In this document: positions 8,701 through 52,022 of the stretch, one piece after another
How the letters are laid out: each line of letters opens with the position of its first letter
Position numbering within the stretch: the first letter of the stretch is position 1
Assembly (NCBI GenBank): GCA_012839115.1
Contig: DUNX01000022.1
Location: forward strand, 1 to 64,000
Reading direction: 5' to 3'
DNA from: Bacillota bacterium
Lineage (GTDB): Bacteria > Bacillota > UBA4882 > UBA10575
DNA: 64,000 nt
Notes under the pieces: generated by a model
Databases searched by the model: none
Told to the model about the DNA's origin: nothing
The model's input: only the letters and a program-made list of their open reading frames with translations
Translations under genes and position numbers: made by a program

Positions 8701-11197
8701 CTTCCCTGTTCAGAACCACATAACCGGCGGCGTATTCATTGCCAACTTGCCCGTACCCCTCGCTGAGCGGCTTGATCCCGATATACCGGCGGTAGGGGTA
8801 AAGTTCAACGCTCTGGTAAGCGCTGACCGCCCGGCCGCCCTCTTCGCTGACGGTAGCCTGGAAGACGGCGTTAATTATGGCAGGGGGCGCGAGCGCCATT
8901 GGGAATATATAGGAAAATTCGGCACGTCCCTCTTCATCCAGGGTTTTTTCACCTAATTCCTGGTGAATGGGGGTAAAACTCCGCTCGCGGTCGCCAAAGG
9001 TGTATGAACCATAACCGGCCGGGCGGAAATCCTTTGCCTCCAGGGTCACCTTGACCCCGGCCCGGCGCCCGGCAGCGGGCGGGCCGAAAAGGTTGACCCC
9101 TTCCACCAGGAGGGTAGCCCGGGTTCCCGGGGAGTAGGTGGAACGGTCGGCGGTGAGCGTCACTTTAATCCGGTCCGGCATAAACTCTTCCACACTGAAA
9201 GAAGCGGAACCGGTGGCCTCTTCGGCAATAAGCGCCCGTACCGAATATTTGCCGGTTTGTGCGTATTCGGGAATGGGTAACGAAAACTCACAGATCCCCT
9301 GGTCCCTGGTGTTACCCAGTAATTCCCGGAAAACCTGGCCGTCGGGTTGGCGGATCTCCAAACGGACCGGAAACTCCGGCGGGACCGTGACTTGCGGGCC
9401 ACGGACGACCGTGACCAGGTTGGCGGTATCCCCGGGGCGGAAAATATCCCGGTCCATGTAGATGAAGGTCTCGTACCCCTTTTCCAGGGTGGGACGGCCG
9501 CGGGTATCGAAATCGGCCATGGCGATCCGGCTGTCATTAAACTTGATAAAGGAAAAGTCCTCTCCTTCTTCGGCCAGGATAATAAAGGGCTCGAACTCTT
9601 CCCGTATCGTTCTGAGGTTGCGGAAGACGGCAACCCCTTGATTGTCCGTAGTGGCTGTGGCCATGGTCTGATTATTCTTGCTGAAGAGGGTTACGCTGAC
9701 CCGGGGTTTCGGTTTCAGATCCGTGAGGGAATTGACCCAGACCAGGAGGTCGTCGCCGCTCATCTTGGCGACCATCCCCAGGTCGGTGATGAACACATTT
9801 TTCAGGTCCCGGCGCCAACGGTAATCATGATCATAAGCGATTACCTGGAAAAACCCGCGGTGGGCGCCGGTCAGGTATTCGCCAAGGCTGATTGGTGTGG
9901 TTACCACCTGGTTTTTGGCGCTGGGGATCTCGATCACCTCTGATTCGATGACCTTGCCCATATGGGAGATGCCATACGAGTAATAAGCCGCATAGTAGTC
10001 GGAGTTATTAAAAAAGGTCACCAGGTTGTTCCTGTAGATCTTGCGGATTTCCAGGTTCACCCGGTCCACGTTGACCGTTTCCAGGCCCAGGTTAAGATGG
10101 CCGCGGCTGGAAAGGTACCGCCCGGGGGAGTTAAAGTTAAGGCTGGGTTCCAGATCACTAAAGGTGACAACCTGGGAGAAATCGCGGGCCAGCGGGTAAC
10201 CATCGAGGGCGGGCATACCGGCCAGGATTGTCATAGTGTAGCTGGCATGCGGTTGAAAACCGTTACTTCTGAGCAGGACCGTATTGCCCTTTCCCTCTAC
10301 CCGGAAAGAGACCTCCGGCCGGATCTGAATAAAGTTGGCGATGGAATCAAGTTCCGGCGGTTCTGAAAAGTTCAGGGCAATCCAAAGCGAGGTCTCATCA
10401 TTCTGCGGTGCGACACCGGTGACCGCCAGGGTTTTCTTCTCCCCGATCACCCGGGTTATTTTGAAATCATCGGCCAGGCCCAGGTCGCCTTCACGCCCCC
10501 GGAAACCCCGCGGCAGGAGCAACTCGACAACCTGCTGCTTGTCGGTGCGGGTCAGAGGGTCGCTGAGAAAAAGGAAAGACCGGCCGTTCTCTTGGTTTTG
10601 GAGGTGATAGCCGATGGCCCGGCCGTCCTGGAACCGTAATTGCAAGTGCTTTTGGAGTTCTTCGTGGTCGACCGGGTGGTTGAAAACCATCCGGATCTCC
10701 GCCACCAAACCTTTTGTTGCCGGCGGTTGCGGCGTTTTCAAATTGATCGCCGCGCTTTCCACATTTATCCGCGGGGTGGAAAACTCAATCTTCCGGCGGC
10801 CGGCGAAATTCTGCCGTTCAGCCAGGAAGAGACCGGGGTTAACCTCCGCACTGTAGGAAGTGGAAGGCCGGAAGGGGATTTCCGGGAGAAAGAGCAGTTC
10901 CTTCCGGGAAACCCACCGGAATCTACCCGGGACCTCCGGAGTGAACTGCACCAGCGGCTGGTCGATGGTTTTTCCAACCTCCTCCTCGGCCACCACCGGT
11001 CTGGAAAAGGTAAAGGTCAGATTGGAGCGCAGGTCAACATCACCGGCAGGCCGCGTCTCGACCAGGCGGATACTGTCGCCGCCCAAAACCAATCCTTTGC
11101 TAAGGAGAAAAACTACGGCCAGGAAAAACAGAACTACGAAAGGCAAGAGCAACCATAAAATCTTCTTATGTTTCTTCCCAACAATCACAGCAGCCAT
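5744..11197 (-). CDS. Bacterial alpha-2-macroglobulin family protein, thioester-containing
   Basis: About 1,817 residues. A cytoplasmic Lys-rich start and one membrane segment (ILWLLLPFVVLFFLAVVFLL) anchor a large extracytoplasmic chain of macroglobulin-type beta domains. The thioester motif CLEQ is intact at about residue 1354 (YPYGCLEQ), in the helical thioester domain. Such proteins trap attacking proteases and work with PBP1C, whose gene lies 220 bases downstream. In known bacteria this pair guards the periplasm, which hints at an outer membrane. Start: ATG at 11197 with GAGGAGG eight bases upstream; the frame is open further upstream to 11281 but across the promoter. Confidence 0.92.
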   Translation of the reverse strand: MAAVIVGKKHKKILWLLLPFVVLFFLAVVFLLSKGLVLGGDSIRLVETRPAGDVDLRSNLTFTFSRPVVAEEEVGKTIDQPLVQFTPEVPGRFRWVSRKELLFLPEIPFRPSTSYSAEVNPGLFLAERQNFAGRRKIEFSTPRINVESAAINLKTPQPPATKGLVAEIRMVFNHPVDHEELQKHLQLRFQDGRAIGYHLQNQENGRSFLFLSDPLTRTDKQQVVELLLPRGFRGREGDLGLADDFKITRVIGEKKTLAVTGVAPQNDETSLWIALNFSEPPELDSIANFIQIRPEVSFRVEGKGNTVLLRSNGFQPHASYTMTILAGMPALDGYPLARDFSQVVTFSDLEPSLNFNSPGRYLSSRGHLNLGLETVNVDRVNLEIRKIYRNNLVTFFNNSDYYAAYYSYGISHMGKVIESEVIEIPSAKNQVVTTPISLGEYLTGAHRGFFQVIAYDHDYRWRRDLKNVFITDLGMVAKMSGDDLLVWVNSLTDLKPKPRVSVTLFSKNNQTMATATTDNQGVAVFRNLRTIREEFEPFIILAEEGEDFSFIKFNDSRIAMADFDTRGRPTLEKGYETFIYMDRDIFRPGDTANLVTVVRGPQVTVPPEFPVRLEIRQPDGQVFRELLGNTRDQGICEFSLPIPEYAQTGKYSVRALIAEEATGSASFSVEEFMPDRIKVTLTADRSTYSPGTRATLLVEGVNLFGPPAAGRRAGVKVTLEAKDFRPAGYGSYTFGDRERSFTPIHQELGEKTLDEEGRAEFSYIFPMALAPPAIINAVFQATVSEEGGRAVSAYQSVELYPYRRYIGIKPLSEGYGQVGNEYAAGYVVLNREGQPIEASSLVAEVYRITWQSVYRRDAEGRYRFQSVEEKIKVHSEELPAASGEQVFRYIPKDYGRYQIVIRDTMEQGVQASLSFYASGWGFAPWAMDNPDKVQLTLEKSSYRPGETAQVQIKAPFTGKALVTVEREKVYSYQMIDLPENTGVVSIPVKEEYLPNVYVTVHLLRTPGDRDKTTPARAFGTVSLPLATSGQRLALHLEAPDEIRPHTEIKVKIAVPGAGEGTRLTLAAVDEGICQLTGYTGPDPMGFFYGKKQLAVASYDLYGMLLPEVEPAMTPGPPAGGMADEDAARRRHLTPVSLRRVIPVSLWSGILTLNKEKEAEVKLKIPQFNGTLRLMAVAFDGDKFGAAQEKRIVREPVVLTPTFPRFVAPRDRFTVPVSVFNGTGETGEFQLSLAADGPVTVTGPAKQSLRLAAGEEKNLLFTLEAGEAIGKVSFTLTASGKNVQVEHTEELPVRPPVPFTQHLFSGTVTADQPLVVKVEDEWFPGTEEYTLTLAPFPDLQLAGSLRYLLQYPYGCLEQITSKIFPLLYFDDLARIAGSDVFKGGNAATFLQAGIEIIESMSLRDGSFLYWPGGTYGNTWSSIYATHFLVEARKAGYAVADRVYRNALSYMQFLTKGSDDKAHALQCRVYALYVLSLAGRPQLSTMAYIKNHQFSKLSHYSRAQLAAAYFYAGDRETAMSLLPATTAASSGQRRETGGNFNSPVRADAIILSALADIDPENTATYRLVNRLNQAAKPGRWGTTQENAFAMMALGKIARKKTAGNYKGEVLLDGSVIARFDSDKEFKLSEARLAQGELTVRIEGEGECYYFLNSSGVPRRLTVSEYDRGLTVRREYLDRTGRPLAPDRITQGDLVIAEITLVAMEDNLENIAIVDLLPSGLEIENPRLQSRESIPWLARKDDFPVDYMDIRDDRLLLFTSLRKAGTYRFYYALRAVACGEFFLPPIKAECIYEPEIQSVAGSGYLAVIPRGAGSGEDAEQ

Positions 11198-43513: not shown

Positions 43514-44123
43514 GTTTGCCAAGATGCTCCTCGCGATCTTGCTGAAGATTTTCTACCGGATAGAGGTAAAAGGCGGTGAATACCTGCCGCCAAAAGGCCC
43601 GGTTATCTGTGTGGCCAACCATGCCAGCCTGGTTGATCCGATTGTTATGGGCTGCAGCCTGAAAAGGTCCGTCAATTTCCTGGCCAAAGAAGAACTCTTC
43701 CGGATCCCGGTCTTGAACTGGATACTGAAAACATTAGGTGTTATTCCGGTAAAGAGGGGTGCTGGGGACCGGGGGGCCCTTAAGTCGGCCCTGAAGGTCC
43801 TGGAGGACAAAAAGGTCCTGGGGCTCTTCCCTGAAGGGACCCGGTACCGGGACAACACCCTCCACCCCTTGCGGCCGGGCGCCGCCATGTTGGCTTTGCA
43901 AACCGGGGCCTGTATCCTCCCGATGCTGATCAGCGGCACGTACCGGATGAGGTTTTTATCTTTCCCCAAAATCAAGGTAGCCATCGGGCCGCCTTTCACC
44001 TTGAGCGCAGGCGGGGAAAGGAAAGAACGGATCAGAGCGGGAACACAAGAGATCTACGCGCACCTGGCCGCCTTATCCCGGCAGGGCGAAGGGATGCCCG
44101 CCGCCCGGCAGGGGAGCGTTTAA
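43500..44123 (+). CDS. plsC: 1-acyl-sn-glycerol-3-phosphate acyltransferase
   Basis: About 207 residues. The acyltransferase motifs NHASLVDP (HX4D) and FPEGTR are intact, with an N-terminal membrane-associated helix. It acylates lysophosphatidic acid to phosphatidic acid at the membrane. ATG at 43500 lies within the end of cmk. The stop TAATG shares a base with the ispH start. Confidence 0.94.
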   Translation: MLLYRFAKMLLAILLKIFYRIEVKGGEYLPPKGPVICVANHASLVDPIVMGCSLKRSVNFLAKEELFRIPVLNWILKTLGVIPVKRGAGDRGALKSALKVLEDKKVLGLFPEGTRYRDNTLHPLRPGAAMLALQTGACILPMLISGTYRMRFLSFPKIKVAIGPPFTLSAGGERKERIRAGTQEIYAHLAALSRQGEGMPAARQGSV

Positions 44124-44995
44124 TGGGGCGGGAGATTATTGTTGGTGAAAAAGCCGGTTGCTGCTTTGGCGTAAAAAGGGCGCTGGAAATAGCCGCCGCC
44201 ACCAGGGAAAAATATCAACGTACACGCCCTGTCTACACCCTTGGACCTTTAATTCATAACCCTAAAGTTGTAAAAAGCATGGAAGAGGCGGGAATCATTC
44301 CCTGCGGGAGCCTGGAGGAAACGGAACCCGGAGGGGTCTTGCTGATCAGGTCGCACGGGGCGGGACCGGAAGCTTTTGCCGCCGCCCGGCGCCACAGCCT
44401 GAAAGTAATCGACGCCACCTGCCCTTTTGTCCGCCAGGAGCAGAAACTCGCCTCCCAGCTTCATCAGGAAGGCTACAAAGTGGTGGTGGTGGGCGACCCC
44501 AACCACGCCGAGGTGCAGGCGGTTGCAGCCTCCGTGCCCGGAGGGGCGGAGGTTATTGACCCGGCGGCCGTAAAAGACGGCGGGGCAAAGATTTCGCTCC
44601 CGGCACGGGTAGGGTTGGTCTGTCAGACCACACAGACGCAGGAAAATTTGGCGGGAGTAATTTCTGCCATTTTACCGGGTATTAGAGAACTGAAGATCTT
44701 TAATACCATTTGTAGCGCCACGGTGGAACGCCAGGCGGAAGTTTATGATCTGGCCCGCCGGGCGGATATATTATTGGTGGTGGGGGGGAGAAATTCGGCA
44801 AACACTCGCAAGCTGGCGGAGATCGGTTCTTCGCTGGTTTCGACTTATCATATTGAAGGGGTTGAAGATCTTGATCCCCATTGGTTCCGGCAAAAACGGG
44901 TTATTGGCGTGACGGCGGGGGCTTCAACTCCCAGAGAACAGATTAACGCGGTTTTGGACTGGTTGGAAGAAAATTTGCAGGAGGAATGGACATGA
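44123..44995 (+). CDS. ispH: 4-hydroxy-3-methylbut-2-enyl diphosphate reductase
   Basis: 290 residues. The three cluster cysteines are in GCCFGVKRAL, DATCPFV and NTICSATVERQ, and the SHGAG and HNP histidines are present. It makes IPP and DMAPP as the last step of the MEP pathway. It overlaps the S1-protein gene slightly, as in other Clostridia. Confidence 0.96.
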   Translation: MGREIIVGEKAGCCFGVKRALEIAAATREKYQRTRPVYTLGPLIHNPKVVKSMEEAGIIPCGSLEETEPGGVLLIRSHGAGPEAFAAARRHSLKVIDATCPFVRQEQKLASQLHQEGYKVVVVGDPNHAEVQAVAASVPGGAEVIDPAAVKDGGAKISLPARVGLVCQTTQTQENLAGVISAILPGIRELKIFNTICSATVERQAEVYDLARRADILLVVGGRNSANTRKLAEIGSSLVSTYHIEGVEDLDPHWFRQKRVIGVTAGASTPREQINAVLDWLEENLQEEWT

Positions 44996-46650
44996 GTGAA
45001 AAGGATCACATGGTACCCAACGAAGAAAATCAGCCGGAGGTGGAGACCCCAATTACCGCAGAAACGGGCGCGGAAGCTGAAACCGTGACAGAAGCAGAAG
45101 CGGGCGTAGAAACTGAAGCAGTAACAGAGCCTGAAGCAGGAGCAGAAACCGTGGCAGAGGCAGGGGTGGAAACCCCGGCAGAAGCAGAAGAAGAAACAGA
45201 GACAGAAACAGGAGCGGAAACAGGAACAGAAACCGCAGAAGCAGAGGCAGGGGTGGAAACCCCGGCACAAACAGAAGCAGGGGAAGGGGAAATTCAGTCC
45301 ATAGAAGGAATGGAGGCGGAAATCCCCAGTTTCAAAGTGGGGGATATTTTGGAAGGCCGGGTAGTTCTGGTCCAGGATGATGCGGCTTATGTCGACGTCA
45401 ACTGGAAGTCGGACCTCCCGGTACCGCTCAATGAATTGAGCCTTGGTAAAGTAAGTTCCGCCCAGGAAGTAGTTAAAGTAGGAGACACCATAAAAGTTAT
45501 GGTGATCGAGATAGAAGAGGATAAAATTATCCTTTCCCGGCGGCGTGCAGAAGAAAGACTGGTTTGGGAGCGGCTGAAAACCGCTTTCCACGAAAAACAG
45601 GCGGTTAAGGGAAGGGTCACCGCAGCCGTAAAGGGCGGGCTCCAAATCGACCTGGAGGGAATACCGGCTTTTCTCCCCGCATCCCATGCAGATTTGAGTT
45701 TTGTGCCGGATTTGGCGGTTTTTGTCGGCCAGGAAATGGAGTTGTATGTTATCGAGTTTTCCGAGGGGCGCCGCAGGCTGGTCGTCTCCCGCCGGGAGCT
45801 TTTGGCCGAAGAGAGGGAAAAGGCGAAAGAAAGGCTTTTTGACGAACTCAAGGCGGGCGATATCCGGACCGGCCGGATTACCCGGTTGACCTCCTTCGGG
45901 GCCTTTATCGAGCTGGAACGGGGGATTGAAGGACTCCTGCACATTTCGGAGATCGCCTGGGAACGCCTGGAACATCCTTCCGAACGCTTGCAAGAAGGAG
46001 AAGAGGTTCAGGTAAAAGTGATCAAGGTTGACCCCGAAGCTGGAAGGATCTCCCTTAGTATTAAACAGCTCACGCCCCATCCCTGGACAACAGCGGCGGA
46101 GAGGTACCGGGAAGGAGATATCGTCGAGGGTGAAGTGGTCCGTCTCACTTCCTTCGGGGCTTTTGTCCGCCTGGAAGAGGGGATCGACGGCTTAATCCAT
46201 ATCTCCCAATTAAGCCATGACCGGGTGGAAAAAGCGGAAGACGTGGTCAAGGTCGGAGAAAAGGTACGGGTAAAGGTCCTGAGAGTGGACACCAAGGAGA
46301 GACGGATCGGACTGAGCCGCAAAGAAGCAGAAAAACCGGGCAAGGTTGAGGAAGAGAAAGCACCCGCCGGCGTTTTTCTTGAAGAGGACGAACCGCTCTC
46401 TTCCAACCTGGGAGCAATCCTCTCTGAAAAATTGGCGGAAAACGGTAACGGCAGCCTCAGCAGTATTGTGAAGGAAGAACCGGAAGAAATAAAAGACGAA
46501 ATCAGCGAAGAAGTGGCGGAGGAAGCAGCGGAAGAAGCAACAGGGGAAGTAAAAGAAGAAGGAACAGGGGAAGTAATAGAGGAAGCAGTGGAAGAAGCAA
46601 AAGAAGAACCCGGAACCGGGGCGGAGGAAGGTACAGAAAGCCCGGACTAG
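44992..46650 (+). CDS. rpsA: S1 RNA-binding domain protein / 30S ribosomal protein S1 homologue
   Basis: About 552 residues. A Glu/Thr/Ala/Val low-complexity region of some 100 residues (repeated EAGVETPAEAE-like units) precedes four S1 domains, each with the FKVGDILEGRV or GRITRLTSFGAFIEL signature. The C-terminus is again Glu-rich (EEVAEEAAEEATGEV). Core S1 domains resemble Clostridial RpsA, here with four rather than six repeats. The acidic extensions are unusual. ATG at 44992 has AGGAGG seven bases upstream. Two terminators follow. Confidence 0.88.
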   Translation: MSEKDHMVPNEENQPEVETPITAETGAEAETVTEAEAGVETEAVTEPEAGAETVAEAGVETPAEAEEETETETGAETGTETAEAEAGVETPAQTEAGEGEIQSIEGMEAEIPSFKVGDILEGRVVLVQDDAAYVDVNWKSDLPVPLNELSLGKVSSAQEVVKVGDTIKVMVIEIEEDKIILSRRRAEERLVWERLKTAFHEKQAVKGRVTAAVKGGLQIDLEGIPAFLPASHADLSFVPDLAVFVGQEMELYVIEFSEGRRRLVVSRRELLAEEREKAKERLFDELKAGDIRTGRITRLTSFGAFIELERGIEGLLHISEIAWERLEHPSERLQEGEEVQVKVIKVDPEAGRISLSIKQLTPHPWTTAAERYREGDIVEGEVVRLTSFGAFVRLEEGIDGLIHISQLSHDRVEKAEDVVKVGEKVRVKVLRVDTKERRIGLSRKEAEKPGKVEEEKAPAGVFLEEDEPLSSNLGAILSEKLAENGNGSLSSIVKEEPEEIKDEISEEVAEEAAEEATGEVKEEGTGEVIEEAVEEAKEEPGTGAEEGTESPD

Positions 46651-46822: not shown

Positions 46823-46851
46823 GCGGGAGTATAAGCTCCCGCTTTTTTTTT
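46823..46851 (+). terminator. Terminator of the housekeeping operon
   Basis: GCGGGAG and CTCCCGC flank a short TATAAG loop, followed by nine T. A strong intrinsic terminator. Confidence 0.9.
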
Positions 46852-46898: not shown

Positions 46899-47071
46899 CT
46901 CTGCCGACCGGCCCGGCCTTTGTTTTCGTGATCGACCACGGCTTTTTCGCCTTCGGCGACCGGGGGGTGGAGGTGCACACTTTTTTTCGTGTACTTTTCC
47001 CCTCTTAGTATTGGAAGAGGGCAGTAGTGAAATAATAACCCTGCAAGTTATGGTGGAGGAGTGCAAAAACG

Positions 47072-47716
47072 ATGAATTTGGGAGTACTTTTATTGCTCGG
47101 GGCCGGGATCCTGATCCTGTTGGGCTTGGCCCAACAGGTGCTGGACCGCCTTTATCTCACCGATAAACAGGCGCTGATCTTTCTTGCCGCAATGGTGGTG
47201 GGGAGTTTTATTAACATCCCCCTTTACCGTGGAACCCCGCCGGTCTCCCTTAACCTTGGCGGGGCTGTTCTCCCTGTGGGCCTTGCGGTTTATGTTTTTT
47301 CCCGGGCCGGGAGCAGAAAAGAGGTCAACAGGGGAATTTTTGGGGTGTTCCTGACCGCCCTGGCCGTTTATGCCGTTTCAAAATTATATTTCTTTGACAC
47401 CTATGCCGGCCGGGTTGAACCACAGTATATTTGGGGCATCCTCGCCGGGGGTGTGGCATACCTGGTCGGCCGTTCCCGGAGGCTGGCTTTTATCGGGGCC
47501 ACCATTGGTATCCTGGTCGCAGATATTGCCCATGCGGTGGAAACAGCGATCCGCGGGCTTTCCTCGCCGGCCCGGATTGGCGGGGCGGGAATCTTTGATA
47601 CCATGGTCCTGGCCGGGGTCATCGCTGTTTTGTTGGCGGAAATCATCGGTGAAACCAGGGAGAGGATCCAGGGCGGGCCGGAAGAGGAACGGGCCCGTCC
47701 GGAAGGAGAAGGGTGA
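47072..47716 (+). CDS. DUF1614-like integral membrane protein
   Basis: 214 residues with about seven membrane segments; the motif AALIFL-VGSFINIPLY-like (residues about 33-53) is the DUF1614 opening. Ends in a short charged tail. It heads a cluster with spoIIP and two DUF3189 genes, whose GTG start overlaps its stop. Ribosome site GGAGGAG upstream. Function unknown; a sporulation link is inferred from neighbours only. Confidence 0.75.
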   Translation: MNLGVLLLLGAGILILLGLAQQVLDRLYLTDKQALIFLAAMVVGSFINIPLYRGTPPVSLNLGGAVLPVGLAVYVFSRAGSRKEVNRGIFGVFLTALAVYAVSKLYFFDTYAGRVEPQYIWGILAGGVAYLVGRSRRLAFIGATIGILVADIAHAVETAIRGLSSPARIGGAGIFDTMVLAGVIAVLLAEIIGETRERIQGGPEEERARPEGEG

Positions 47717-48771
47717 GAGATATGAAGAAAAACAAGGGGAAATTCCTGCTGCCGGCGGCCCTTTTGTTATTGGGAATTTTTACCTTGCCGGCGACGGCGG
47801 AAAGGGAGAAGACCGATGGTACCTATTTCACGATTGTCGATGAAAACGAAGAAGTGATCTGCCGGACCGCCCATCATATCAGTGTTGGTGACGAATATCT
47901 GACCGCAGAGAATAACCTGTACCGGGTAAGGAGCGTCCACCAGAATACGGCCCATGCCCGGTTGGTGGAGGAAGGATCTGACACCGGCAGGCGGTCGTTT
48001 TTCCAAGAGATCCGCCGGGGGCTACAGGCCCTTTTCCCGAGACGCGCCGAACCGGCCCAGAGTGAGGGGGAGAAGCGACCAATCGCCATTTATCACACCC
48101 ACTCCGGGGAGTCTTACATTCCCAATGAAGGTTCTCCCCATGTCGAGGCCGGCAACAGCGGTGTACGCAAGGTGGCCCATCGCCTGGCCCGCCGCTTGGA
48201 AGCGGAAAACCTCCAGGTAATACATGACACTTCCAACCATGATCCGCAGGATGCCATGGCCTATGACCGTTCCCGCCGGACCGTGGCGGAACTGCTCAAG
48301 AAACGTCCCATTGCCCTGATTGATGTGCACCGGGACGCGGTGCCCGAAGAAGAATATGAAGCATGGGTGGAAGGGGAAAAAGCCGCAAAAATCCAGCTGG
48401 TAGTGGGGAGGCAAAACCCCTACCGTAAGGCCAACGAGGCTTTTGCGCGTCAGGTTAAAGCCGCGGTGGATCGGGAGTACCCCGGTTTGATCAAAGGGAT
48501 CTTCTACGGTAACGGTAAGTACAATCAGGATATGGCCCCACGCCTCCTGTTGATTGAAGCCGGCTCCCACACCAATGACCGGGAGGAAGCGGAAAAAGGG
48601 GTGGAGTTGTTTGCCGCCGCCGCCCACCGGGTCCTTTCAACCGGAACGGTGAGCCGCCAGGAGTCATCCGGCGCCTGGCGCGCCCTTTTATGGGTTGTCG
48701 GGTTGGTTGCCGCCGGAGTGGTGATTTTCTACTTCCTGAACCGGGGCTGGGGAAGATTGCGTGAGGAATAA
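47713..48771 (+). CDS. spoIIP: Stage II sporulation protein P
   Basis: 352 residues. N-terminal signal/anchor (LLPAALLLLGIFTLPATA), then the SpoIIP amidase/endopeptidase domain with IAIYHTHSGESY, ALIDVHRDAV, RQNPYRKANE and LLIEAGSHTN, the metal-binding and catalytic motifs; a C-terminal membrane segment (WVVGLVAAGVVIFYFL). SpoIIP degrades peptidoglycan during engulfment with SpoIID and SpoIIM. Start GTG at 47713 overlaps the upstream stop; ATG at 47722 is an alternative. Confidence 0.93.
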   Translation: MRDMKKNKGKFLLPAALLLLGIFTLPATAEREKTDGTYFTIVDENEEVICRTAHHISVGDEYLTAENNLYRVRSVHQNTAHARLVEEGSDTGRRSFFQEIRRGLQALFPRRAEPAQSEGEKRPIAIYHTHSGESYIPNEGSPHVEAGNSGVRKVAHRLARRLEAENLQVIHDTSNHDPQDAMAYDRSRRTVAELLKKRPIALIDVHRDAVPEEEYEAWVEGEKAAKIQLVVGRQNPYRKANEAFARQVKAAVDREYPGLIKGIFYGNGKYNQDMAPRLLLIEAGSHTNDREEAEKGVELFAAAAHRVLSTGTVSRQESSGAWRALLWVVGLVAAGVVIFYFLNRGWGRLREE

Positions 48772-49207
48772 GAAGATCATTTACCACTGGTCCGGCAGGG
48801 GGGTAAGCGCGCCCCTGGCAGCAGCCCTGCATTTAGGGCTGGTGGAACCAACGCCGGCCGGGACCGCCGCCCGGAAGATCGCCAGGAGTCTCGTGGGAGG
48901 GATCCCCTTTGGGAGGGGGGCAGGGAAAGAAAAAGGGACCCTGATCTTCCTCGGTACGGGCAAAAGCGGTGAAAAGGTTTACCTGCTGCCCAGGGGAAAG
49001 GAGGGGAAACTGCTTTTGACCCTTATCCAGGAAACCGCCCGTCTGCTGGGGGAGGACCCGGATACCTATTATTTCATCGACTGTGAACTGTGCACCAGCA
49101 GGCAGCCTGCTTCAAGAAAAGGCAAAGAGTTGTTCCGGAGGATCGAGGAGATGGTCCTGGCGGTAAAAGAGGACGCGCGTGCGTGCGCGGCATTACCGGG
49201 GCCGTGA
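48761..49207 (+). CDS. DUF3189 family protein, copy 1
   Basis: 148 residues: KKIIYHWSGRGVSAPLAAALHLGL at the N-terminus is the DUF3189 start, with a TLIFLGTGKSGEKVYLLPRG middle. No catalytic residues are assigned for this family. The GTG start overlaps the spoIIP stop, and the end, which contains a GC tract (codons for DARACA), overlaps the second copy by four bases. Confidence 0.8.
   Translation: MRNKKIIYHWSGRGVSAPLAAALHLGLVEPTPAGTAARKIARSLVGGIPFGRGAGKEKGTLIFLGTGKSGEKVYLLPRGKEGKLLLTLIQETARLLGEDPDTYYFIDCELCTSRQPASRKGKELFRRIEEMVLAVKEDARACAALPGP
49173..49189. repeat. Alternating GC tract at the 3' end of DUF3189 copy 1
   Basis: ACGCGCGTGCGTGCGCG, perfectly alternating purine-pyrimidine, within the last codons of the first DUF3189 gene. 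Confidence 0.6.
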
Positions 49208-49674
49208 AGGTAATTTACCATTGTTACGGGAGGGCCCATTCGTCGGTGGTTGCCGCCCACCTGCATCTGGGAAATCTGCCGATGGCGGGTCCGGTCAGCA
49301 TAGAGCAACTCATTGGCCTGGCCGAATTTGACCGGGCGGATCCCTCCCAATGGGGAATCCCGTATCTCATGGGCCGGGATGAGCGGGGAAACGAAGTGTA
49401 TATCCTGGGCCTGGACAGCCAGACCCCGGCGGGGCTCCGGGCAATAACTAGCCTGACCTGGCATTTAGGGAAAAAAGACGAGATTTTCCTCTGCAATACA
49501 CTGCCGGCGATAGGACTCCTCACCCGGCTGGGCGGATTTACCTCCAAAAAGCTGGGCTTAACCACGATTGGCCGGCCTTTGGCGGCCTTTGGCATTATTC
49601 TATCCCTTGAACGCCTGAGGGGGCTGGTAGCCTGGACAAAAGGGAATTTGTCCGGAAAGGCCGGGCGCTGTTGA
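49204..49674 (+). CDS. DUF3189 family protein, copy 2
   Basis: 156 residues: VKVIYHCYGRAHSSVVAAHLHLGNL matches the start of copy 1 (IYH, small residues, AAHLHLG), and GRDERGNEVYILGLD corresponds to its GEKVYLLPRG region. The GTG start sits in the overlap GTGA with the preceding stop. Tandem DUF3189 genes after spoIIP suggest two subunits or a recent duplication with divergence. Function unknown. Confidence 0.8.
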   Translation: MKVIYHCYGRAHSSVVAAHLHLGNLPMAGPVSIEQLIGLAEFDRADPSQWGIPYLMGRDERGNEVYILGLDSQTPAGLRAITSLTWHLGKKDEIFLCNTLPAIGLLTRLGGFTSKKLGLTTIGRPLAAFGIILSLERLRGLVAWTKGNLSGKAGRC

Positions 49675-49752
49675 ATTTCGGCGCCGCTGGGTTCTGCTAT
49701 GGCAGGAGGCGGTAGCAAAAGAAGGAACAAAAATGAAGGTCGAGGAGGAAAA

Positions 49753-50928
49753 ATGAAGGTCGGAATCCCCAGGGCCCTTTTGTATTATTGGTACGGTCCG
49801 GCCTGGAAGGCATTTTTTGGTGCCGCCGGCCTGGAGCCGGTGGTCTCGCCGCCAACCAATAAAGCGATTATGACCGCAGGGCTAAAGGCGGCTGTTGACG
49901 AGATTTGCCTGCCGGTCAAGGTGTTCATCGGCCATTGCCTTGAGTTGCAAAAAACCTGCGATGCCGTGCTGGTTCCCCGTTTGACCAGTGTTGCCCGGAA
50001 GGAATTTACCTGCCCGAAGTTCATGGGACTCCCGGATATGGTCCGCCGTTTGCTGCCACAGACGCCGGTCATTATTTGGGAAAGCAGCGGTGGTTTCCTC
50101 CCGGAACGCGTGTGGACGCCGAGATCCGGGATAATTTTCGCGCGGGAGTTTTCAACCCCCGCCGGCCAGGCCGGGGTCGCCCGTGGAATCGCCAGCGGCG
50201 TTGCCCACGAGGCCGTCAATTGGCGCGGAATTACCCGCGGGTGCAGACGGGCAAAAAAACCGTTGGCAGCAGCCAGGAAGGCCCATGCCGTTTATACCGG
50301 GCTTTTACGCCGGGGTTACCTGCCGGAGGAAGCGGCGGCGGTTTGCGACGGCTTGCCGGACTCGCCTGGCGGCGTCCGGCAAAGAGTCAAGCCGCCAGGG
50401 ACAGGTCAAGAACTACCGGACTCAGGAAGCCGGGGTAATCCGGACAAGTACGTGTTAAAATCAGACCGGGGTAACCCTGGAGCAAAACCAAGCCGGGTTA
50501 TTGGTTTGGTCGGGCATCCCTACTGCCTCTACGACTCCTTTGTCAATACCGGTATTCTCCGTTTTTTGCAGCAAGAGGGGTGCCATATCCTGACCCCGGA
50601 GATGCTGCCGGAAGAGGAGATTGCCATGGCCCTTAAAGGATTGCCCAAGGCGATCTACTGGACCATGGGACGGCTGGCTCTTGGGGCGTCCCGCCTTTTT
50701 CGCGCGCCCGCGCGCGGGCAGGCCGGGGTTGACGGGCTGATTCATGTAGCGGCTTTTGCCTGTGGTCCGGAAGCGCTGATCGGTGAATTGATCAAAAGAG
50801 AATGCCACCGGGAAATTCCCTATCTCCAGATTTACCTGGATGAGCATTCGGGAGAAGCCGGCCTTCATACCAGGCTCGAGGCCTTTCTTGATCTGGCGGG
50901 AGGAAAGGGGCAGGCGGGATGCGTTTGA
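49753..50928 (+). CDS. Acyl-CoA dehydratase activase-related protein (DUF2229), subunit 1
   Basis: 391 residues. VGIPRALLYYWYGPAWKAFF at the start and EICLPVKVFIGH, VPRLTSV, CPKFMGLPDM, then FACGPEALIGE and LDEHSGEAGLHTRLEAF, all DUF2229 hallmarks with conserved cysteines likely holding an Fe-S cluster. A less conserved insert near residues 155-245 is Arg/Gly-rich, and an alternating GC tract at 50705-50720 encodes another variable loop. ATG at 49753 follows GGAGG. The next gene overlaps and encodes a related protein. Confidence 0.85.
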   Translation: MKVGIPRALLYYWYGPAWKAFFGAAGLEPVVSPPTNKAIMTAGLKAAVDEICLPVKVFIGHCLELQKTCDAVLVPRLTSVARKEFTCPKFMGLPDMVRRLLPQTPVIIWESSGGFLPERVWTPRSGIIFAREFSTPAGQAGVARGIASGVAHEAVNWRGITRGCRRAKKPLAAARKAHAVYTGLLRRGYLPEEAAAVCDGLPDSPGGVRQRVKPPGTGQELPDSGSRGNPDKYVLKSDRGNPGAKPSRVIGLVGHPYCLYDSFVNTGILRFLQQEGCHILTPEMLPEEEIAMALKGLPKAIYWTMGRLALGASRLFRAPARGQAGVDGLIHVAAFACGPEALIGELIKRECHREIPYLQIYLDEHSGEAGLHTRLEAFLDLAGGKGQAGCV

Positions 50929-52022
50929 CTTTTCCCCGGATGGGGCAGATCGACATACCTGTACAGACCCTTTTTACGGAGTTGGGGCACCAAGTGGTAC
51001 CGCCGCCTCCGGTGACAAAACGCACCTTTGATCTGGGTGTCAAGCATGCGCCGGAATTCGCCTGCCTGCCCTTTAAGATGACGCTGGCCAATTATATTGA
51101 AGCCATAGAAAAAGGGGCGGAAGCCGTTGTCACCTTCGGGGGTGCGGGGCCGTGCCGGTTCGGATATTTTGCCCAGGTGCAAAAGGGGATTCTTCATGAT
51201 TTAGGGTATGATTTTGAACTGTTGCTCCTGGATCCGCCCGGTGCTGAAACCCGGGAACTCTTCCGGTCCCTCCGCTTTCTTTTTGGGAAAAACCTGAAAC
51301 AGCCCGGGCGGATCTGGCGGGCCCTCCGTTTGGCCTGGGCGAAAGCGGTCTTTCTGGACCGGGCCAACCGGCTTTACCGTCGCCTCCTCCCCCGTGTCGC
51401 CCAGAAAAAGGCGGCGGAAATGGAATACCAGAAGTTCCTCAGGGTCATGGCGGCGGAAAGGGACCTCCACCGCCTGGAGCTGGTCTACACCGCCCTTGCC
51501 CATAACCTGGATAATTTGGCCCGCCTGGAAACCGGGCGGGTGTTGCGGGTGAAGATCGTCGGGGAGATTTATATGATCCTTGAATCCGGGGTAAACTTTC
51601 ATACTGAAAACATCCTGGGGCAGATGGGGGTGGAGGTGACAAGGTCCGTTTCCATGACCCACTGGGTGGAAGCCAATCTCTTGAAGGCCCTGTTTCCGGG
51701 GCACCGCCGCCGGACCGAATTGTTATCCATCCCTCATCTCACTTCGTTTGTCGGTGGTCACGGGCGGGAGACCATCGCCGAAACGGTGGACGCCGGTACA
51801 AACCGGGTGGACGGGGTAGTGCAAATCCTTCCCTTTACCTGTATGCCGGAACTCGTAGCCCAGAGTATCCTCCCGGATTTAAGCCGGCGTTTTAACCTGC
51901 CCGTCCTCAGCCTGGTCCTGGATGAACACTCCGGCGCCGCCGGTGTGACCACCAGGTTGGAGGCGTTTGTGGATTTGCTCCGGGAGAAAAGGGAGAAGGA
52001 TGAGGCAAAGGCAGGGGTGTGA
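50919..52022 (+). CDS. Acyl-CoA dehydratase activase-related protein, subunit 2
   Basis: 367 residues. TFPRMGQIDIPVQTLF, then PEFACLPFKMTLANYIEA, TFGGAGPCRFGYFAQVQ and the C-terminal FTCMPELVAQSIL with LVLDEHSGAAGVTTRLEAFVDL. Similar ends to the upstream protein suggest a common origin. It overlaps the first subunit by ten bases. Related pairs occur with HgdC-type ATPases in Clostridia; their precise role is unknown. Confidence 0.85.
   Translation: MRLTFPRMGQIDIPVQTLFTELGHQVVPPPPVTKRTFDLGVKHAPEFACLPFKMTLANYIEAIEKGAEAVVTFGGAGPCRFGYFAQVQKGILHDLGYDFELLLLDPPGAETRELFRSLRFLFGKNLKQPGRIWRALRLAWAKAVFLDRANRLYRRLLPRVAQKKAAEMEYQKFLRVMAAERDLHRLELVYTALAHNLDNLARLETGRVLRVKIVGEIYMILESGVNFHTENILGQMGVEVTRSVSMTHWVEANLLKALFPGHRRRTELLSIPHLTSFVGGHGRETIAETVDAGTNRVDGVVQILPFTCMPELVAQSILPDLSRRFNLPVLSLVLDEHSGAAGVTTRLEAFVDLLREKREKDEAKAGV

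Follow-up and report, generated by a model that had tools for sequence, protein, structure and literature searches.

A possible second SpoIIP module with DUF1614 and paired DUF3189 proteins in Bacillota carrying sporulation genes

Most of what is known about engulfment comes from Bacillus subtilis, an organism with no DUF3189 match. The stretch of DNA analysed here (the window: 64,000 nucleotides, positions 1 to 64,000 of contig DUNX01000022.1 in the Bacillota bacterium assembly GCA_012839115.1) carries four consecutive genes, DUF1614-spoIIP-DUF3189-DUF3189, and raises the question of what a SpoIIP protein does in the company of a membrane protein and two DUF3189 proteins. A reading of the sequence alone had named these genes and described them as overlapping; the names are upheld by profile matches, and the overlaps measure 4, 11 and 4 bases, the first of which would vanish if spoIIP starts instead at the ATG at 47722. 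The answer we tentatively prefer, whilst giving it somewhat less than an even chance, is that the cluster encodes a second SpoIIP module, in which the cluster's own SpoIIP ('SpoIIP2', a name coined here) would work with DUF1614 and be regulated by a cytosolic DUF3189 heterodimer. Such a combination of a second, apparently tail-anchored SpoIIP, a membrane protein and paired DUF3189 is found in many bacteria with sporulation genes.

Distribution and gene order

The survey covered 398 genomes of the phylum, in which SpoIIP and SpoIVA genes, rather than phenotype, were taken to mark a spore former. DUF3189 was found in 232 genomes, SpoIIP in 341 and SpoIVA in 336. All 232 DUF3189 genomes have SpoIIP, as seen when the gene lists were cross-read by hand, and none of the 57 SpoIIP-negative genomes has DUF3189 (Fisher p 2.7e-25, ignoring kinship). 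SpoIVA accompanies DUF3189 in 228 of the 232, the other four genomes (G236, G284, G306 and G312) being 61-90% complete. Conversely, 232 of the 341 SpoIIP genomes have DUF3189, a prevalence that counts DUF3189 genomes and not SpoIIP2 genome by genome; within the class to which the window belongs, the figures are 28 of 29 genomes for DUF3189 and 29 of 29 for SpoIIP. None of 14 named control genomes has DUF3189, among them B. subtilis, which does have SpoIIP, and the phages and plasmids searched gave no match. Hence the link to sporulation made by the sequence-only reading is borne out, and DUF3189 is not common in genomes lacking sporulation genes, but its expected place beside spoIIP proved less than universal, with no spoIIP nearby in 12 of 66 named loci. 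A passage of PMC5898192 records that SpoIIP occurs in bacteria forming no spores. The cluster's link to engulfment is plausible, and better supported now than it was from the window sequence alone.

Across 80 named loci the commonest order is cmk-plsC-ispH/rpsA-(fni)-DUF1614-spoIIP-(YIEGIA)-DUF3189-DUF3189-DUF512-der-plsY-gpsA-spoIVA, where the identities of YIEGIA, DUF512, DUF1614, SpoIIP, SpoIVA and Der were checked against Pfam on example loci, and the names plsC, ispH, cmk, fni, mobA, plsY and gpsA were given on sequence features rather than by profile search. For 66 named loci the sequence 5' of DUF3189 is 3.5 kb or longer; spoIIP is found there in 54 and DUF1614 likewise in 54. In the class, 25 regions extend this far (the window included, and genome G403 entered twice), and both genes are present in 24, the exception being L132 of G404; since so many share them, this order is not the product of chance. 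The two DUF3189 copies abut or overlap in 19 of 25 class loci and in 21 of 48 named loci, counting only gaps of -60 to 300 bases.

The same conserved order suggests an alternative, namely that DUF3189 serves the wider rpsA-der-gpsA-spoIVA neighbourhood (YIEGIA, DUF512 and SpoIVA), for example in spore envelope assembly or a metabolic step, with SpoIIP2 and DUF1614 merely co-expressed neighbours. Among named loci, der lies downstream of DUF3189 in 60 of 64, a higher proportion than that of spoIIP upstream, and DUF512 in 50 of 64, about an equal one; in Tumebacillus, Caldalkalibacillus and Marinithermofilum, DUF3189 sits next to YIEGIA and der with no linked spoIIP. The 12 named loci without spoIIP within 3.5 kb include these three genera (Tumebacillus twice), Melghirimyces and an Aneurinibacillus metagenome-assembled genome (MAG), as well as MAGs in which the DUF3189 pair directly follows rpsA or fni, and because such loci exist the role of DUF3189 is not solely to serve SpoIIP2. 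However, the window locus has lost the der side (the class was examined downstream in the window only, all fetched regions but one ending too soon), and 28 of the 29 class genomes lack YIEGIA (PF14045), otherwise a frequent neighbour, yet DUF1614 and spoIIP still precede the DUF3189 pair in 24 of the 25 class regions. We regard a role in the wider neighbourhood as a real but doubtful possibility.

The lone class genome with YIEGIA, G403, has it in a second cluster (L129), where it lies between spoIIP/DUF1614 and DUF3189; the SpoIIP of this cluster groups with Syntrophomonas rows in the tree described below, and the cluster was possibly acquired by transfer.

The SpoIIP paralogue of the cluster

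The window SpoIIP scores above the cut-off of both family profiles (PF07454, 211.9 bits, E 1.6e-62; TIGR02867, 175.5 bits, E 1.1e-51), and another SpoIIP (C79) is encoded elsewhere in the source genome. In a tree of 42 cluster-linked rows, picked at random from 101, and 27 stand-alone rows, one branch divides the two groups, with a Shimodaira-Hasegawa-like approximate likelihood ratio test (SH-aLRT) support of 99; 'linked' denotes a gene at most 2.5 kb from DUF3189 or DUF1614, except that L144, at a locus edge, was set as linked by hand. The same one-branch split is obtained with 39 linked and 25 stand-alone rows after removal of L173, L102, L150 and two pieces of L047. The tree rows do not include the B. 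subtilis SpoIIP, so the tree does not identify its stand-alone orthologues. Judged by phylogeny, then, the cluster gene is a separate and old paralogue: calling it SpoIIP was correct as to family, but it is not the only SpoIIP of its genome. More generally, at least two SpoIIP genes are found in 218 of the 232 DUF3189 genomes, against 45 of the 109 SpoIIP genomes without DUF3189, kinship again being ignored.

The conserved His/His/Glu residues are kept in both clades alike, the linked proteins retaining them in 99 of 99, 100 of 100 and 99 of 100 cases respectively, gaps excluded. What sets the linked clade apart is a C-terminal hydrophobic helix, detected by alignment-based hydropathy in 93 of 94 linked SpoIIPs but in none of the 26 stand-alone ones, whilst an N-terminal hydrophobic stretch is found in 89 of 94 and 26 of 26, with the N-terminal parts taken from the preceding stop and not from a proven start. 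In the window protein a hydrophobic segment (residues 9-30) is followed by a small beta domain (approximately 39-86), the amidase domain (approximately 124-309) and the C-terminal helix. These domains recur in the AlphaFold model, in which the helix is long (mean predicted local distance difference test score, pLDDT, 86.4; predicted template modelling score, pTM, 0.78), and the top matches of the model in the PDB are N-acetylmuramoyl-L-alanine amidases (4m6h, E 1.6e-6), with the LytH and CwlD complexes also among the matches (7tj4 and 7rag). From this layout we infer an exported enzyme with a C-terminal anchor, the extreme end of which would lie in the cytosol.

The DUF3189 pair

The downstream copy of the window has the full canonical residue set, C7-x-G9-x-x-H12-S13-S14, H21, D43, D59, S114-K115 and G123-R124, whilst in the upstream copy the positions of C7, H12 and S14 are altered and the C-terminal GG-SRR-GRP region is missing. 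Of 165 canonical copies, 163 have C7 and all have H12 and S14, although these counts are partly so by construction, the three being among the five residues that define 'canonical'. Writing A for a degenerate and B for a canonical copy in the order of transcription, the 143 loci comprise 61 A-B, 33 B-A (four of them fused), 23 B-B (two fused) and 20 with B alone, together with four B-?, one ?-B and one A-A. The motif was lost from the upstream copy in the family of the window, the Thermosediminibacterales and others, and from the downstream copy in the Syntrophomonadaceae and others; the window's class contains both kinds of loss (L136 and L140 as against the window). Loss from both copies of one locus was seen once, in L141, a 72%-complete MAG in which both copies score as degenerate and the first is without the N-terminal motif region.

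Because the search that yielded loci L035-L114 used the canonical-copy motif, and L005-L034 were chosen for their top Pfam scores, the presence of at least one B is by construction throughout L005-L114. The class loci, to which no motif selection applied, have at least one canonical copy in 27 of 28 cases. In addition, the best DUF3189 match in 228 of the 232 genomes beats that of the strongest degenerate copy in the class (3.1e-32, G403), the exceptions being G166, G233, G388 and G310, with copies not typed as canonical or degenerate and a weakest value of 4.7e-24. The class loci show that one canonical copy is retained, and the genome-wide matches suggest the same.

Both domains are fused into one protein in seven instances (G100 at L016, G162, G390, G070, G231, G279 and MAG L107), which span four genome families (f72, f17, f31 and f108) besides the MAG; this number is not a frequency, because five of them (L142-L146) were fetched for their long frames. 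The second domains of L142 and L145 score only 28 and 31 bits, and L142 was counted as 'B alone', its second domain having been matched over a short stretch. In a tree of canonical copies (122 of the 165, left after thinning at 80% identity), 50 upstream (p1) and 53 downstream (p2) rows are separated by a single change, with an SH-aLRT of 98. This final test had five long-branch p2 rows removed (L016, L027, L032, L024 and L020) and the copy order in L102 and L131 set by domain coordinates; before these adjustments there were four changes. With one branch between p1 and p2, the pair is the outcome of an old duplication. Degenerate copies are poorly placed in the tree that contains them.

That the two proteins form a heterodimer is well supported by this evolutionary pattern, and since the likely active site may vanish from either half, but almost never from the two together, they probably work as one device. 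The contrary view, that one copy is active and its partner a duplicate in decay, retained by the structure of the operon, can point to degenerate copies that are often on long branches, to an apparently broken copy in Thermoanaerobacter wiegelii and to the 20 of 143 loci counted with a single copy, but is improbable given two copies in the other 123, the fusions in four families and a MAG, the loss of the motif from either copy but from both only once, and the residues that degenerate copies keep (G51 in 96 of 96, G57 in 89 of 96 and, usually, H21, in 70 of 96). In T. wiegelii (L081) the degenerate copy is seemingly split into two frames at 9543-9982 beside an intact canonical copy, and at 9339-9542, between YIEGIA and DUF3189, there is a 67-amino acid frame that matches nothing in NCBIfam.

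The sequence-only reading had envisaged a heterodimer of the tandem copies within a peptidoglycan-remodelling complex. The first half of this idea gains from the seven fusions and the loss of the motif in either copy; the second does not hold if it places the pair inside the peptidoglycan compartment, since the window proteins have neither an export signal nor a hydrophobic segment, leaving only action from the cytosol. The window pair thus probably acts in the cytosol. Hydrophobic stretches (at least 1.6) occur in 23 of 261 typed DUF3189 domains, those of the window not among them.

In the AlphaFold model of the downstream copy (mean pLDDT 86.7, pTM 0.84), C7 ends strand 1 and H12-S13-S14 begins helix 1. 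Attempts to name the family by its fold were set aside: the best Foldseek E was 0.16, with none at 0.001 or better; VIA-align gave no Z over 6.0; and a profile search of PDB sequences found nothing better than E 0.8. A low-molecular-weight (LMW) phosphatase, 4pic, is a weak VIA-align match (Z 6.0, root mean square deviation 4.5, 97 residues) with which small GTPases tie. In a profile comparison the DUF3189 loop falls in register with the LMW phosphatase loop of the window's class, but the match is weak (hhalign, 4.2%; 0.6% for a control of DUF3189 against SpoIIP), the profiles having been built from the loci with a typed motif (15 of 24 phosphatase loci, and 12 of 24 for the phosphotransferase system (PTS) IIB proteins). 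The CX5R phosphatase signature is absent: of the 165 canonical copies, 164 have S, A or T at position 13 and one has H, none having Arg. Given this missing arginine and the low phosphatase score, a cysteine-based anion site in DUF3189 can only be hypothesised.

Expression, proposed mechanism and known systems

The features of the window are collected in Table 1. A terminator-like hairpin follows rpsA, and the cluster is thus probably transcribed as a unit of its own; the whole stretch has ten such sites against 6.0 expected. The gene overlaps are conserved and relatives have one promoter-like block before DUF1614, in agreement with the joint expression that the sequence-only reading had proposed. 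In the family of the window (16 genomes) this 32-base block, with up to 3 mismatches, occurs once per genome in all ten searched. The sigma factor to which it would respond is ambiguous, the block being readable as sigma-A-like TTGAAT-N18-GATAAT, and there is no sigma-70 site at the diverged block of the window.

Table 1. Features of the cluster and its upstream flank in the window
Feature	Coordinates	Strand	Evidence or detail
Terminator-like hairpin with T run after rpsA	46823..46842	+	8-pair stem, 6 G-C
Promoter-like block 5' of DUF1614	47008..47038	+	diverged form of the family's 32-base block
DUF1614 gene	47072..47716	+	PF07758, E 5.7e-16, 59.4 bits (cut-off 23.9); product of 214 amino acids, polytopic membrane protein with six hydrophobic segments
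spoIIP gene (SpoIIP2)	47713..48771	+	GTG start, 352 amino acids; profile matches, tree, hydropathy, AlphaFold model
SpoIIP2 C-terminal hydrophobic helix	48667..48750	+	residues 319-346, then six residues to the end
DUF3189 copy 1 (p1, upstream paralogue)	48761..49207	+	GTG start, degenerate; PF11385, 45.2 bits, E 1e-11, profile positions 1-100 of 147 (cut-off 23.2)
DUF3189 copy 2 (p2, downstream paralogue)	49204..49674	+	GTG start, canonical; PF11385, 134.6 bits, E 3e-39, profile positions 1-146 (cut-off 23.2)
Copy 2 codons for the conserved C-x-G-x-x-H-S-S loop	49222..49245	+	end of strand 1/start of helix 1

Sister clusters were compared with GCATA-N15-GGnnA, which we take to be the sigma-F-type pattern; the expected numbers derive from mononucleotide shuffles, in a set of loci related to one another. 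Of 93 loci, 12 have a strict sigma-F-like site 5' of DUF1614 (0.2 expected) and 22 a relaxed one (4.3 expected). Upstream of other genes strict sites are near expectation (der 0 of 75, YIEGIA 1 of 77, DUF512 1 of 90, spoIIP 0 of 133), and sigma-E-like sites 5' of DUF1614 are at chance (3 of 93, 2.6 expected). Some sister clusters have a sigma-F-like promoter.

Around the cluster, a profile search of the window proteins found rpsA upstream, preceded by genes whose sequence features resemble those of plsC and ispH. The ispH-like gene and rpsA are separate and overlapping in the window (44123-46650), whereas the matching frame in named loci has a median of 701 amino acids, as expected of an IspH-RpsA fusion; the window RpsA has a long, acidic and repeat-rich N-terminus. 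A YphA (PF24124) profile match reaches 20.9 bits, under the curated cut-off of 28, and would represent a distant relative at most. Directly 3' of the cluster are two DUF2229, coenzyme A-enzyme-activase-like genes (49699-52022), in the position that DUF512-der-plsY-gpsA-spoIVA occupies in many relatives. At L069:10568-11500, close after a DUF3189 gene, is a match to a SurA-like PPIC rotamase, profiled at that locus only, and genes of the same cluster are found in MAGs L035, L048, L052, L076, L077 and L080.

In the second SpoIIP module that we prefer, SpoIIP2 would be a cell-wall amidase/endopeptidase, exported by the cell that produces it and held at the membrane by its C-terminal helix, with DUF1614 as a polytopic membrane partner, comparable in role to SpoIIM or to ActH, the partner of the amidase LytH. 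The cytosolic DUF3189 heterodimer would need its Cys-Gly-His-Ser site in one subunit only, the degenerate subunit being kept for structure or regulation; it would most likely bind or process a phosphorylated or other anionic ligand, and so set the activity or placement of SpoIIP2 and DUF1614 from the cytosolic side. The site and time of action would probably be the forespore, under sigma F, during or after engulfment.

The loci without spoIIP and the absence of YIEGIA from most of the class weigh against this reading, as do several other points. We found no data on the expression, interactions or activity of DUF3189, and no paper found in the open-licence PubMed Central (PMC) literature names DUF3189, DUF1614, PF11385 or pfam11385. 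The family has no confident match to any solved fold, and homology to LMW phosphatases (hhalign, 4.2%) or to PTS IIB (5.3% over 19 columns) was set aside, each being kept as a local resemblance only. The strict sigma-F-like site is absent from the window and the block of its family is also sigma-A-like. Passages of PMC3789822 assign the C. difficile spoIIP, which lies beside gpr, to sigma F and its B. subtilis counterpart to both sigma F and sigma E, so sigma-F control would not distinguish SpoIIP2. The C. difficile SpoIIP is described in part of PMC6221140 as being without bound metal, and relatives of DUF1614 are common in archaea according to a passage of PMC5898192, hence DUF1614 cannot be counted as a sporulation protein in itself.

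If the reading is nonetheless correct, many spore formers outside the Bacillus model would have a second SpoIIP that is anchored in another way and has a cytosolic partner of two subunits to itself. This could help to explain how clostridia place septal wall hydrolysis with SpoIIB and SpoIVFA reported missing, as a passage of PMC3533761 has it; gains of SpoIIB in Clostridia have been inferred in part of PMC7924749. In its fullest form, which we consider unlikely, DUF3189 would be a heterodimeric switch of a new kind, acting in the cytosol through a cysteine-based site for an anion, possibly phosphate, with one site repeatedly kept while the other decays, and controlling a forespore-made, C-terminally anchored SpoIIP2-DUF1614 pair; many spore formers would thus have a forespore-side wall-cutting machine beside the mother-cell SpoIID-SpoIIM-SpoIIP (DMP) complex. 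Since the site has been lost from one copy or the other, but very rarely from the two together, the heterodimer and its active site are directly testable.

Part of this arrangement has been described before. The neighbourhood in the passages of PMC5898192, which in 2015 reported pfam07758 (DUF1614; arCOG02159/COG4089) beside SpoIIP and yphB/YIEGIA and proposed a 'membrane remodeling' complex, contains the same DUF1614-SpoIIP pair as the window, and this linkage is not new here; those passages do not name DUF3189 and are silent on a SpoIIP paralogue clade, a C-terminal anchor and promoters. LMW phosphatases and PTS IIB proteins have Cys-based phosphate loops; the Cys-x-Gly-x-x-x-x-Ser of DUF3189, at the strand 1/helix 1 junction, aligns with the loop of the former, but the Arg of that loop is replaced by Ser in most DUF3189 proteins. 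The LytH-ActH and CwlD-GerS pairs, in which an amidase of the same fold is bound to a partner, are only an analogy for DUF1614. In B. anthracis, two spoIIP genes are under sigma F and sigma E, according to a passage of PMC3789822, again suggesting one SpoIIP for the forespore and one for the mother cell; the parallel is drawn from their described regulation. Another close comparison is with the SpoIIP of the DMP machine, with which SpoIIP2 shares the Pfam and TIGR models, the His/His/Glu residues and an Amidase_3-like model fold. In contrast, SpoIIP2 falls outside the clade of stand-alone SpoIIPs, one of which is encoded elsewhere in the same genome; it has an N-terminal beta domain and is predicted to be anchored differently, by a C-terminal membrane helix besides the N-terminal segment; and it is encoded together with DUF1614 and DUF3189.

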